Source: Hydrotalea flava
Lineage (GTDB): Bacteria; Bacteroidota; Bacteroidia; Chitinophagales; Chitinophagaceae
DNA length: 64,000 bases
Assembly: GCF_001623405.1 (NCBI RefSeq)
Contig: NZ_LUHG01000082.1
Location: 1 to 64,000, forward strand
Reading direction: 5' to 3'
Position numbers and translations under genes: made by a program. The notes below the pieces were generated by a model. It saw only the letters and a list, made by a program, of their open reading frames with translations. It was not told the origin of the DNA and searched no databases. Below are positions 61,490-63,943 of this stretch, piece after piece. Every line of letters begins with the position of its first letter. The first letter of the stretch is position 1.

Positions 61490-61578
61490 GGAATATTTTC
61501 TTTTCTATTCAAGTGTTTAGGCTATTTTGAATTTTCGATGGCAGCATACATTCCGGTGTACTGTTATTCTAAAAAAAA

Positions 61579-61609
61579 TTTCTCCTTTCCAATCAATACC
61601 TTACTTTTG
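61579..61609 (+). promoter_or_regulatory. Promoter of the his operon
   Basis: TACTTTTG at 61602-61609 matches TAnnTTTG, and TTTC at 61579-61582, 19 bases before it, is one base from the TTTG -33 element. Transcription would start just ahead of the leader peptide. Confidence 0.5.
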
Positions 61610-61627
61610 CTGCGTAATTAAAAATCA

Positions 61628-61678
61628 ATGAATTTAAACAACGTATACATGCATCATCATACACTGCCTACTTTGTAA
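61628..61678 (+). CDS. His-operon leader peptide
   Basis: A 16-residue reading frame, MNLNNVYMHHHTLPTL, ending TAA, contains three consecutive His codons (CAT CAT CAT, 61652-61660). The ATG directly before them (61649) could also start it. Ribosomes that stall on the His codons when charged tRNA-His is short would leave the sequence at the stop codon free, allowing antitermination. The number of His codons is lower than in E. coli (seven). The linkage to a perfect terminator and then hisG makes the case strong. Confidence 0.75.
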   Translation: MNLNNVYMHHHTLPTL

Positions 61679-61725
61679 GCAGACGATGTTTGGTGTTTAT
61701 ACTTTTCATAACATTTGAAGCTTAC
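61675..61725 (+). promoter_or_regulatory. Candidate antiterminator of the his attenuator
   Basis: GTAAGC (61675-61680), which covers the leader's stop codon, is the exact complement of GCTTAC (61720-61725), the 3' six bases of the terminator's left arm. The two structures exclude each other. A ribosome that reaches the leader stop would cover GTAAGC and let the terminator form; one stalled at the His codons would leave it free. Confidence 0.6.
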
Positions 61726-61742
61726 TCCGGTAAGCTTTTTTT
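61718..61742 (+). terminator. Attenuator terminator before hisG
   Basis: A perfect 8-bp stem, AAGCTTAC (61718-61725) and GTAAGCTT (61730-61737), with loop TCCG and a T run to 61742. It lies 40 bases after the leader stop and 36 bases before hisG, where an attenuator would be expected. Confidence 0.85.
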
Positions 61743-61777
61743 ATTTTACAAACATTCACAAAATTGTGAAAAACAAA

Positions 61778-62647
61778 ATGCGTATGCAAAACGAAAAATT
61801 AAAATTGGCAATTCAAAAAAGTGGCAGATTACATGATGATTCGATGAAATTATTAAAGGAATGTGGTATTGATATTACCAATGGTGTAAATAAATTAAAA
61901 ACCGAAGCCAGCAATTTCCCCATTGAAGTATTTTTTTTAAGAGACGATGATATACCGCAATATGTAGAAGATGCTGTTGCAGATATTGGATTTGTTGGTG
62001 AAAATGTGGTGTATGAAAAAAATAAAAAGGTAACTGTGGTTGAAAAATTGGGTTTTGGAAAATGCAGATTGTCTATTGCCGTTAGAAAAGGCGATGTGTA
62101 TGCCGGGCCGGAATATTTGCAGGGTAAAAAAATTGCAACCAGTTATCCCGTTTTATTACAACAGTACTTACAACAAAAAAATATCAATGCCGAAATACAT
62201 GAAATTAGCGGCAGTGTTGAAATTGCGCCGGGAATTGGTTTAGCAGATGCTATTTGTGATTTGGTAAGCAGCGGTTCAACTTTATTTATGAATGGATTGG
62301 CAGAATCGGAAGTAATTTTAAATTCACAGGCAGTATTAATTCAAAATGAACAATTACCACAGCACAAACAACAATTACTGAACAAATTATTGTTTCGTAT
62401 ACAGGCAGTAAAAAAAGCTAAGAATAACAAATACGTTTTATTAAATGCGCCCAACCATAAATTAGCTGAAATCATTGCTTTGTTGCCGGGTATGAAAAGC
62501 CCAACGGTACTGCCCTTGGCAGAACAAGGGTGGAGCAGTGTGCATAGTGTATTAAGCGAAAATCAATTTTGGGATATTATTGAACAATTGAAACAAGCCG
62601 GCGCTCAGGGCATTTTAGTAGTACCCATTGAAAAAATGATTATTTAA
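61778..62647 (+). CDS. hisG: ATP phosphoribosyltransferase (long form)
   Basis: A 289-residue enzyme that joins ATP and PRPP in the first step of histidine synthesis. Signatures are LKLAIQKSGRLHDDSMKLLKECGI, DIGFVGENVVYE, SGSVEIAPGIGLADAICDLVSSGSTL, and a C-terminal PII-like regulatory domain, so it is the long form that is inhibited by histidine and needs no HisZ. The start is 61778; 61784 (MQNEKLK) is an equal alternative. The operon continues with hisD 12 bases downstream. Confidence 0.95.
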   Translation: MRMQNEKLKLAIQKSGRLHDDSMKLLKECGIDITNGVNKLKTEASNFPIEVFFLRDDDIPQYVEDAVADIGFVGENVVYEKNKKVTVVEKLGFGKCRLSIAVRKGDVYAGPEYLQGKKIATSYPVLLQQYLQQKNINAEIHEISGSVEIAPGIGLADAICDLVSSGSTLFMNGLAESEVILNSQAVLIQNEQLPQHKQQLLNKLLFRIQAVKKAKNNKYVLLNAPNHKLAEIIALLPGMKSPTVLPLAEQGWSSVHSVLSENQFWDIIEQLKQAGAQGILVVPIEKMII

Positions 62648-62659
62648 AAAAGTTTTGTC

Positions 62660-63943
62660 ATGCAAATTTTTGAAAATCCTTCCCATCAGCAATGGAAAGC
62701 AATATTACAACGTCCGGCATTAGATAATGCCGGTTTGCAGGCTACCGTGCAAAATATTTTGCAGGAAGTACACAAGAATGGTGATGCAGCTATTCGTGCA
62801 TTTACACATTCACTGGATAAAGTTTTATTGGATAATTTTGCGGTGCAGGAAGCTGAGATTGCATCTGCAAGCTTCAAAATAAAACCTGAACTTAAAAATG
62901 CCATTCAGGTTGCAGTTAATAACATTACATTATTTCATGAAAAGCAATTACAACCTGTTGAGAAAATTGAAACAATGCCGGGTGTTACCTGCTGGCGCAA
63001 ATCAGTACCTATTGAGAAAGTTGGATTGTATATACCCGGTGGTTCAGCTCCTTTATTTTCAACCCTGTTAATGTTGGCTATTCCTGCAAAAATTGCCGGT
63101 TGTAAAGAAATTGTTTTGTGTACGCCTCCACGTAAAGATGGTACCGTTGATGAAGTAATATTATATACAGCATCCTTACTTGGAATTAAAAAAGTATTCA
63201 GTATTGGAGGAGTACAGGCCATTGGCGCCATGGCATACGGCACCAATACCATACCGCAGGTATATAAAATTTTTGGACCGGGTAATCAGTATGTAACCGC
63301 TGCTAAGCAATTGATACAACAGGAGGGTGTTGCTATTGACATGCCTGCCGGCCCCAGCGAAGTATGCGTATTGGCCGATGAATCGGCTAATGCAGCATTT
63401 ATTGCAGCAGATTTATTATCGCAGGCTGAGCATGGACCAGATAGTCAGGTAATGTTGGTAACAACACATGCTTCATTGGTAACCTTGGTCTTGGAGGAAA
63501 TTGAAAAGCAACTGAAGGTTTTGCCTCGTAAAACATTAGCTAAAAAATCTTTGGATAATAGCAAATGTATTGTACTTCAAAAAATGGAGGAAGCCATTGC
63601 ATTTGTAAATGCTTATGCAGCCGAACATTTAATTCTGCACTGCCGGCAACCGGAACTGATTGCCGAACACATTACCAATGCAGGTTCTGTATTTTTAGGT
63701 GCTTATTCTCCTGAAAGTGTAGGCGATTATGCCAGTGGCACCAATCATACCCTTCCCACCAATGGTTTTGCAAAAGCTTATAGTGGTGTAAGTGTAGACT
63801 CATTTGTAAAAAAAATTACCTATCAGCAACTATCACAGGATGGATTGGCATTAATTGGCCCATCAGTAGCATTAATGGCAGCAGCAGAAAGATTGGATGC
63901 GCACCGTAATGCTGTTCAAATCCGATTAAATACGATGGAATAA
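62660..63943 (+). CDS. hisD: Histidinol dehydrogenase
   Basis: A 427-residue zinc enzyme that oxidises histidinol to histidine in two NAD+ steps. Segments seen are VGLYIPGGSAPLFSTLLMLAIPAKIAGC, GPGNQYVTAAKQLI, DMPAGPSEVCVLADESAN, the zinc-site LLSQAEHGPDSQ, and the C-terminal YASGTNHTLPTNGFAKAYSGVSVDSF. It is in order with hisG, as in typical Bacteroidota his operons. Confidence 0.97.
   Translation: MQIFENPSHQQWKAILQRPALDNAGLQATVQNILQEVHKNGDAAIRAFTHSLDKVLLDNFAVQEAEIASASFKIKPELKNAIQVAVNNITLFHEKQLQPVEKIETMPGVTCWRKSVPIEKVGLYIPGGSAPLFSTLLMLAIPAKIAGCKEIVLCTPPRKDGTVDEVILYTASLLGIKKVFSIGGVQAIGAMAYGTNTIPQVYKIFGPGNQYVTAAKQLIQQEGVAIDMPAGPSEVCVLADESANAAFIAADLLSQAEHGPDSQVMLVTTHASLVTLVLEEIEKQLKVLPRKTLAKKSLDNSKCIVLQKMEEAIAFVNAYAAEHLILHCRQPELIAEHITNAGSVFLGAYSPESVGDYASGTNHTLPTNGFAKAYSGVSVDSFVKKITYQQLSQDGLALIGPSVALMAAAERLDAHRNAVQIRLNTME

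Follow-up and report, generated by a model that had tools for sequence, protein, structure and literature searches.

A probable four-region, ribosome-mediated histidine attenuator upstream of hisGD in Hydrotalea flava and its relatives among the Bacteroidota

The window, a stretch of 64,000 nucleotides from Hydrotalea flava, contains the first genes of a histidine operon, whose products both match NCBIfam equivalogs, confirming their identification as hisG and hisD. The hisG frame opens at 61778, and an ATG at 61784 that is common to two close relatives (L002 and L003) may be the true start. Upstream of hisG, an earlier note had described a promoter-like TAnnTTTG element, a 16-residue leader peptide with three consecutive His codons, an 8-bp terminator stem with a T run and, at the leader stop codon, the hexamer GTAAGC, complementary to GCTTAC in the left arm of the terminator. 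All of these were checked base by base and are present, and their coordinates are collected in Table 1. The nearest relatives by HisG sequence are two metagenome bins (L002 and L003, 95 and 93% identical) and Hydrotalea sandarakina (L004, 89%), and the 16-codon leader recurs in all three (in L002 as judged by eye).

Table 1. Features of the his leader region and of the genes that follow it, in positions of the window
Feature	Position	Strand	Details	Basis
Candidate promoter −33 box, TTTC	61579..61582	+	3 of 4 letters match TTTG; 19-base gap to the −7 box	sequence; TTTG in many relatives
Promoter −7 box, TACTTTTG	61602..61609	+	18 bases before the leader ATG	sequence
Leader ORF, MNLNNVYMHHHTLPTL	61628..61678	+	ATG 61628-61630; stop TAA 61676-61678	sequence and relatives
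Three His codons in the leader ORF	61652-61660	+		sequence
Region 1	61643..61671	+	5' arm of the 1:2 hairpin, with the His codons, CUGC and UAC inside it	minimum-energy fold, covariation
Region 2	61675..61702	+	GUAAGC (61675-61680) and AUGUU (61686-61690); also 3' arm of the 1:2 hairpin	folds, alignment counts
Region 3	61710..61725	+	AACAU (61710-61714) and GCUUAC (61720-61725); partners region 2; terminator left arm	alignment counts, folds, cross-family energies
Intrinsic terminator	61718..61742	+	8-bp stem, UCCG loop, T run	sequence, fold, covariation
Parts of the terminator		+	AAGCTTAC 61718-61725; loop TCCG 61726-61729; GTAAGCTT 61730-61737 (region 4); T run to 61742	sequence
hisG, ATP phosphoribosyltransferase	61778..62647	+		TIGR00070, 1.9e-56
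hisD, histidinol dehydrogenase	62660..63943	+		TIGR00069, 2.3e-159

The earlier note had proposed aligning the regions upstream of hisG from relatives and asking whether the His codons, the complement and the terminator go together, a check that was run and passed. Among 130 upstream regions, comprising the window and its closest relatives (L002-L130, with some species represented twice and most, not all, labelled Chitinophagaceae), a His leader was present in 128 and the full combination of leader, terminator and complement in 123; by the rule used, five of the remaining seven had the leader only and two had neither. The full combination was found in 0 of 2600 first-order Markov-resampled controls and on 0 of 130 reverse strands, where a His ORF alone occurred in 45 and 4, respectively. 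The combination is far beyond chance, and the suggestion that the attenuator is typical of the clade is borne out by the same 123 regions. The automatic terminator rule missed imperfect stems, in L026 and L128 in this set and in L169 and L367 (by eye) in the phylum set described below. A covariance model (R1) built from 83 leaders matched 168 of 195 family genomes at E <= 0.01; the strong matches that were compared with hisG positions (e.g. G027, G063, G018) sit immediately before hisG, and the weak ones include other leaders and plain terminators.

Loci with hisG and without His codons, which the earlier note had named as its refuting case, are rare in the family. An ATG-based search found no leader at three family loci, L103, L113 and L139: by eye, L103 has a leader with a GTG start, L113 (genome G041) has a strong model match (1.2e-16) about 500 bases upstream, and L139 is the sole one of the three without a leader. 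In L113 another reading frame apparently lies, by eye, in the roughly 500 bases between the his leader and terminator and hisG. Three other his-model matches in the H. flava genome (E <= 1) were considered as further his attenuators and rejected by eye; two (L180, L181) look like terminators after other genes and the third (L182) has no recognisable leader.

Folding of positions 61600-61777 revealed, in both the minimum-energy structure and the centroid, a hairpin (61643-61702) in which the His-codon stretch pairs with the stretch after the stop codon and encloses GUAAGC, through the helices GUAUA x UAUAC, GCAUCA x UGGUGU, CAU x AUG, CUGC x GCAG and UAC x GUA. The free RNA folds with z = −2.63, and 2 of 200 shuffles folded equally well. 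The antiterminator extends beyond its six-pair core, GUAAGC x GCUUAC, by a further helix, AUGUU x AACAU. This helix and the 1:2 hairpin are features that the earlier note overlooked. When the window RNA was folded in states that differ in ribosome position, the two-helix antiterminator was predicted with a ribosome placed at the His codons and RNA made to 61729, and was absent from the predicted structure with the ribosome at the stop codon or for the free RNA. In the full-length RNA, each of the four states keeps the terminator in its minimum-energy fold, including the one with the ribosome at the His codons. Read-through would therefore have to be a kinetic outcome, set by the order of synthesis, as it is in known attenuators.

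The pairings were examined in an alignment of 83 dereplicated sequences, obtained from 129 sequences that dereplicated to 93 by omitting ten divergent rows (L114, L127, L131, L136, L137, L140, L141, L143, L147, L148), of which five (L136, L137, L140, L141 and L147) show, by eye, a 2:3 pair restored by compensating changes. For alignment A1, RNAalifold gave the terminator only; the 1:2 and 2:3 helices were for this reason written by hand from the window fold and the consensus and then counted, and they are not independent of that fold. The terminator helix is paired in 98.4% of cells, and 7 of its 10 pairs show changes on both sides. In the 2:3 antiterminator the core is paired in 95.8% of cells and the second helix in 70.8%, and the covariation score was reached in 0 of 500 shuffles; pairs with a double change (214/500) and further pair types (227/500) showed no clear excess over shuffles, and the core is nearly invariant within the family. 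The 1:2 hairpin is paired in 79.0% of cells versus 28.2-49.4% when slid, with shuffles matching its covariation score in 0/500, its further pair types in 1/500 and its double-change cells in 18/500; its pairs with a double change showed no clear excess (81/500), and double-change cells are more numerous in two slid versions than in the actual structure (53 and 44 versus 30). Taken together, 1:2 and 3:4 have 98 cells changed on both sides versus 36.3 in shuffles (0/500), mostly from the terminator. The 1:2 hairpin covaries, less clearly than the terminator, and is the weakest of the three pairings.

Energy swap tests, which lean less on the column alignment and whose permutations ignore relatedness, favour both pairings. 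The native mean was −18.76 versus −16.77 swapped for 1:2, and −17.10 versus −15.75 for 2:3, each reached in 0 of 5000 permutations, and the reversed control gave 4234 of 5000. With partners swapped within the family, the native partner fell in the best tenth for only 12 of 83 sequences (1:2) and 16 of 83 (2:3).

A wider set was drawn from 213 genomes with hisG across the phylum and held 79 loci from 28 families, 29 of them the best-matching loci fetched and 50 picked to spread the families. Thirty-nine have a His leader and a terminator, 14 a His leader only, and 26 no His leader; simple shuffling gave a His ORF alone in 25 of 1580 cases. Helix sequences vary from family to family (GGTAAGC x GCTTACC; CTCAAGCG x CGTTTGAG; AGACGG x CCGTCT; GCCGG x CCGGC), and regions 2 and 3 change together. 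Region 2 pairs with its own region 3 at −14.44 kcal/mol, compared with −12.33 when partners are swapped within a family and −8.76 across families; 0 of 10,000 permutations were as low as the native arrangement. The own partner was at least as good as every partner from another family for 18 of the 39 loci tested, with a mean rank of 0.064 where 0.5 is expected. These 39 of the 79 loci were chosen without asking for complementarity, and a few (f44, f49, L173) may be chance His ORFs. We take the cross-family fit as the strongest evidence that the complement is functional.

Some loci depart from this plan. At L350-L353 (f23), at L154, L157 and L159 (f28), and at L144 and L146 of the same order, a His-rich ORF precedes hisG and the rule used finds no intrinsic terminator; the f28 ORFs and those of L144 and L146 end in HHSS. 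At such loci the output step may differ. Locus L148 (G004), of the same family as H. flava, has a hisG leader and terminator that resemble those of family f25 and not those of its own family, and its HisG shows only 59% identity; gene and leader were possibly transferred together.

The placement of the complement at the stop codon is the commonest arrangement and not a general one. The motif GTRRGC overlaps the stop in 104 of 138 rows (a set that includes duplicates and other families of the order), is kept off it in 21, where it lies 4-8 bases after or 7-23 before the stop, and is missing from 13. Distances were measured in 128 distinct rows, left from 149 loci once 6 without a leader, 5 without a terminator, 9 duplicates and 1 without an antiterminator had been dropped. 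Region 2 is defined here as the best complement, which favours the fit. The median distance from the final His codon of the run to its start is 13 bases (exactly 13 in 62/128; range 2-19), and in 10 rows this distance is below 8. A ribosome at the stop, with an assumed footprint of −18 to +12, would cover region 2 in 126 rows, the two exceptions being among those 10, and the stop moves by 30 bases or more relative to region 2 among the rows. The common rule seems to be that region 2 falls under a ribosome parked at the stop, rather than that it coincides with the stop itself.

Of 124 scored relatives, 104 have the −7 box at most 10 bases ahead of the leader ATG (median 8; a looser box was allowed where TAnnTTTG is absent), and 5 more relatives have no box; the 18 bases of the window are a longer spacing than this. 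Across the phylum set this spacing is greater and less uniform: of 39 loci, 22 have the box 4-35 bases before the ATG, and no box was found in the other 17. Transcription in Bacteroidota starts about 4-6 bases after the −7 box; if it does so here, then with the box this close to the ATG many of these leaders would be almost leaderless. With only a few bases between the predicted transcript start and the leader ORF, the element would offer a natural test of near-leaderless translation coupled to transcription. Passages of PMC7366714 put 5' UTRs of fewer than 10 bases at about 3.7% in Bacteroides thetaiotaomicron, and passages of PMC9723704 put leaderless mRNAs at 5.5% in Flavobacterium psychrophilum and describe the phylum as lacking Shine-Dalgarno sequences.

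Anatomy, conservation, pairing covariation, geometry and the structures predicted for each assumed ribosome position lead us to read the element as a classical four-region, ribosome-mediated transcription attenuator of the operon beginning with hisGD, with a probability of about 0.9. Hallmarks of a his-type attenuator that are found here are a run of cognate codons, in a predicted leader, before the cognate operon (HHH before hisGD); an intrinsic terminator before the first gene; an antiterminator that excludes it; a protecting 1:2 hairpin that excludes the antiterminator, this being the weaker element; and distances at which, under the assumed footprint, a ribosome at the His codons would free region 2 and one at the stop would cover it. 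From these we infer leader translation, pausing, coupling of polymerase and ribosome, and a response to histidine. With ample charged His-tRNA, the ribosome would reach the stop codon and cover GUAAGC in region 2, and terminator 3:4 would form. Without translation, the 1:2 hairpin would sequester region 2, and the terminator would form as well. When charged His-tRNA is scarce, the ribosome would stall at the His codons with its leading edge just short of region 2, which could then pair through both helices with region 3 once the latter has been made, letting the polymerase read through into hisG. The earlier assignment of termination to a ribosome at the stop and of read-through to a ribosome at the His codons is supported.

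The same note had taken the element for a minimal two-state switch, simpler than the four-region leader of E. coli, in which the stop-codon complement competes with the terminator only and no 1:2 hairpin operates. The complementarity of GUAAGC and GCUUAC, the overlap of GUAAGC with the stop in the window and of the motif with the stop in most rows, and the standing of the 1:2 hairpin as the weakest pairing all suit such a switch, but the hairpin appears in both the minimum-energy fold and the centroid, is paired in most cells and covaries, and the motif is kept away from the stop in 21 rows. Because this hairpin encloses GTAAGC, is present in fold and centroid and covaries, pairings 1:2, 2:3 and 3:4 all exist, and the simpler switch is improbable. 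An ordinary terminator of the upstream region with a chance ORF has a negligible likelihood: a terminator alone would be unremarkable, but the combination recurs in 123 of 130 regions and in none of the resampled controls or reverse strands.

The remaining alternatives concern what is sensed. One is a ligand riboswitch or T-box that would itself respond to histidine or uncharged His-tRNA and in which the His codons would be incidental; it has nothing in its favour beyond the presence of a terminator and an antiterminator. No Rfam family reaches its gathering score anywhere in the window; 61560-61780 gives 18 matches at E <= 10, all scoring far short of the gathering threshold and with no T-box among them; and the His codons belong to an ATG frame and are spaced from region 2 as expected for the edge of a ribosome. 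We consider this reading scarcely credible. It was rejected on the Rfam results, the two-state switch on fold and covariation, and the chance ORF on conservation. A His-rich nascent peptide that arrests its own ribosome through its sequence, and not through a lack of charged tRNA, could account for the conservation of His-rich peptides among relatives. The residues after the His run vary, however, and the string CTTACC persists while the frame in which it is read changes (FLP in L005, TYL in L118), which points to selection on the RNA and makes peptide arrest very unlikely.

The attenuator reading places the element beside the his attenuator of E. coli and Salmonella (hisL, Rfam His_leader), in which hisG is preceded by a leader peptide containing a His run, an antiterminator and a terminator that exclude each other, and a protecting first hairpin. 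The Hydrotalea element shares all of these and differs in its sequence, its three consecutive His codons, its more compact form, a region 2 that begins at the stop codon, and a leader ATG near the promoter. His_leader gave no match at gathering score in the window, nor was it among the matches at E <= 10 in 61560-61780. Part of PMC9723704 reports in F. psychrophilum an element upstream of hisG that is conserved in Flavobacteriaceae and has no Rfam match, along with strong clues for leader-peptide attenuation upstream of amino-acid operons. Phylum, gene, proposed mechanism and lack of an Rfam match are thus alike, and the section on the hisG element gives no gene-by-gene mechanism. Our family f25, in which 12 of 13 loci have a His leader and terminator, is at a guess the same group; its helix is CTCAAGCG x CGTTTGAG, in contrast to GGTAAGC x GCTTACC in the Hydrotalea element. 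In some Firmicutes, a different phylum, portions of PMC9413887 describe His-leader attenuators that are alike in having three to five consecutive His codons and a terminator and antiterminator before his genes, and its main text has no word beginning with Bacteroid. The authors of PMC2965389 wrote in 2010 that they knew of no demonstrated example outside Proteobacteria and Actinobacteria earlier than their own Firmicutes cases. PMC7366714 mentions that long 5' UTRs in B. thetaiotaomicron contain small ORFs resembling leader peptides, and the available text of PMC8305728, on his genes of the superphylum, has no word beginning with 'leader'. A literature search with incomplete journal coverage found only brief mentions of amino-acid attenuation in Bacteroidota and no paper on a Chitinophagaceae His attenuator or on a lysine leader peptide. 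Lopatovskaya et al. 2010 may cover Bacteroidetes. The principle is well known, and little was found in print for the Bacteroidota, where the His attenuator is common; the present account gives a complete, testable description of histidine control in this phylum.

Leaders of similar build occur before other amino-acid genes. A scan of the H. flava genome found no leader at thrA (L263), at two lysC-like genes (L264, L265), at two leuA-like genes (L287, L306) or at one of two chorismate-binding genes (L327). Twenty further his-model matches, picked by hand, lie before hisG (3), before asd (5), before an aminotransferase gene and/or lysC (8), and elsewhere (4); the asd and lysC leaders among them are Lys-rich by eye. 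Leaders with Lys codons and a his-like plan were seen by eye at L184, L189, L193, L195, L197, L200, L201 and L202, before an aminotransferase-lysC pair in five cases, an aminotransferase gene in L201, and lysC in L195 and L200. A search of 59 relatives upstream of asd gave, among the 30 best loci, 23 with a Lys-rich leader and terminator, 22 of them with a complement, and 7 with no terminator by the rule. Counted among these, the asd gene of H. flava itself has a Lys-rich leader, MNKVIYTKRTKKPV, with a terminator (L219, G000:C83, upstream of 33788). L219 and L203-L225 encode peptides of the KHTKRTKK type, and their terminator is mostly CCTTCC..GGAAGG. Neither L219 nor L187 has an Rfam match at gathering score. 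The asd leader is a candidate lysine (or lysine and threonine) attenuator; elsewhere, lysine control is exerted by the lysine riboswitch. There is perhaps an even chance that the Bacteroidota share a single compact plan of attenuator, re-coded for several amino acids, with the ATG almost at the 5' end and region 2 one ribosome edge past the last sensing codon, and that this plan includes a lysine-sensing leader upstream of asd and of the aminotransferase-lysC pair. A WWW leader with a terminator and a complement was seen near a chorismate-binding (trpE-like) gene at L344 (G005). Upstream of pheA, 10 of 13 loci (L307-L309, L311-L313, L315-L318) have a Phe/Tyr-rich leader with a terminator and a complement, and in H. 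flava the leader is MKQITANTGFCFFFYYYFIQ (L308, G000:C31, minus strand, near 221590).
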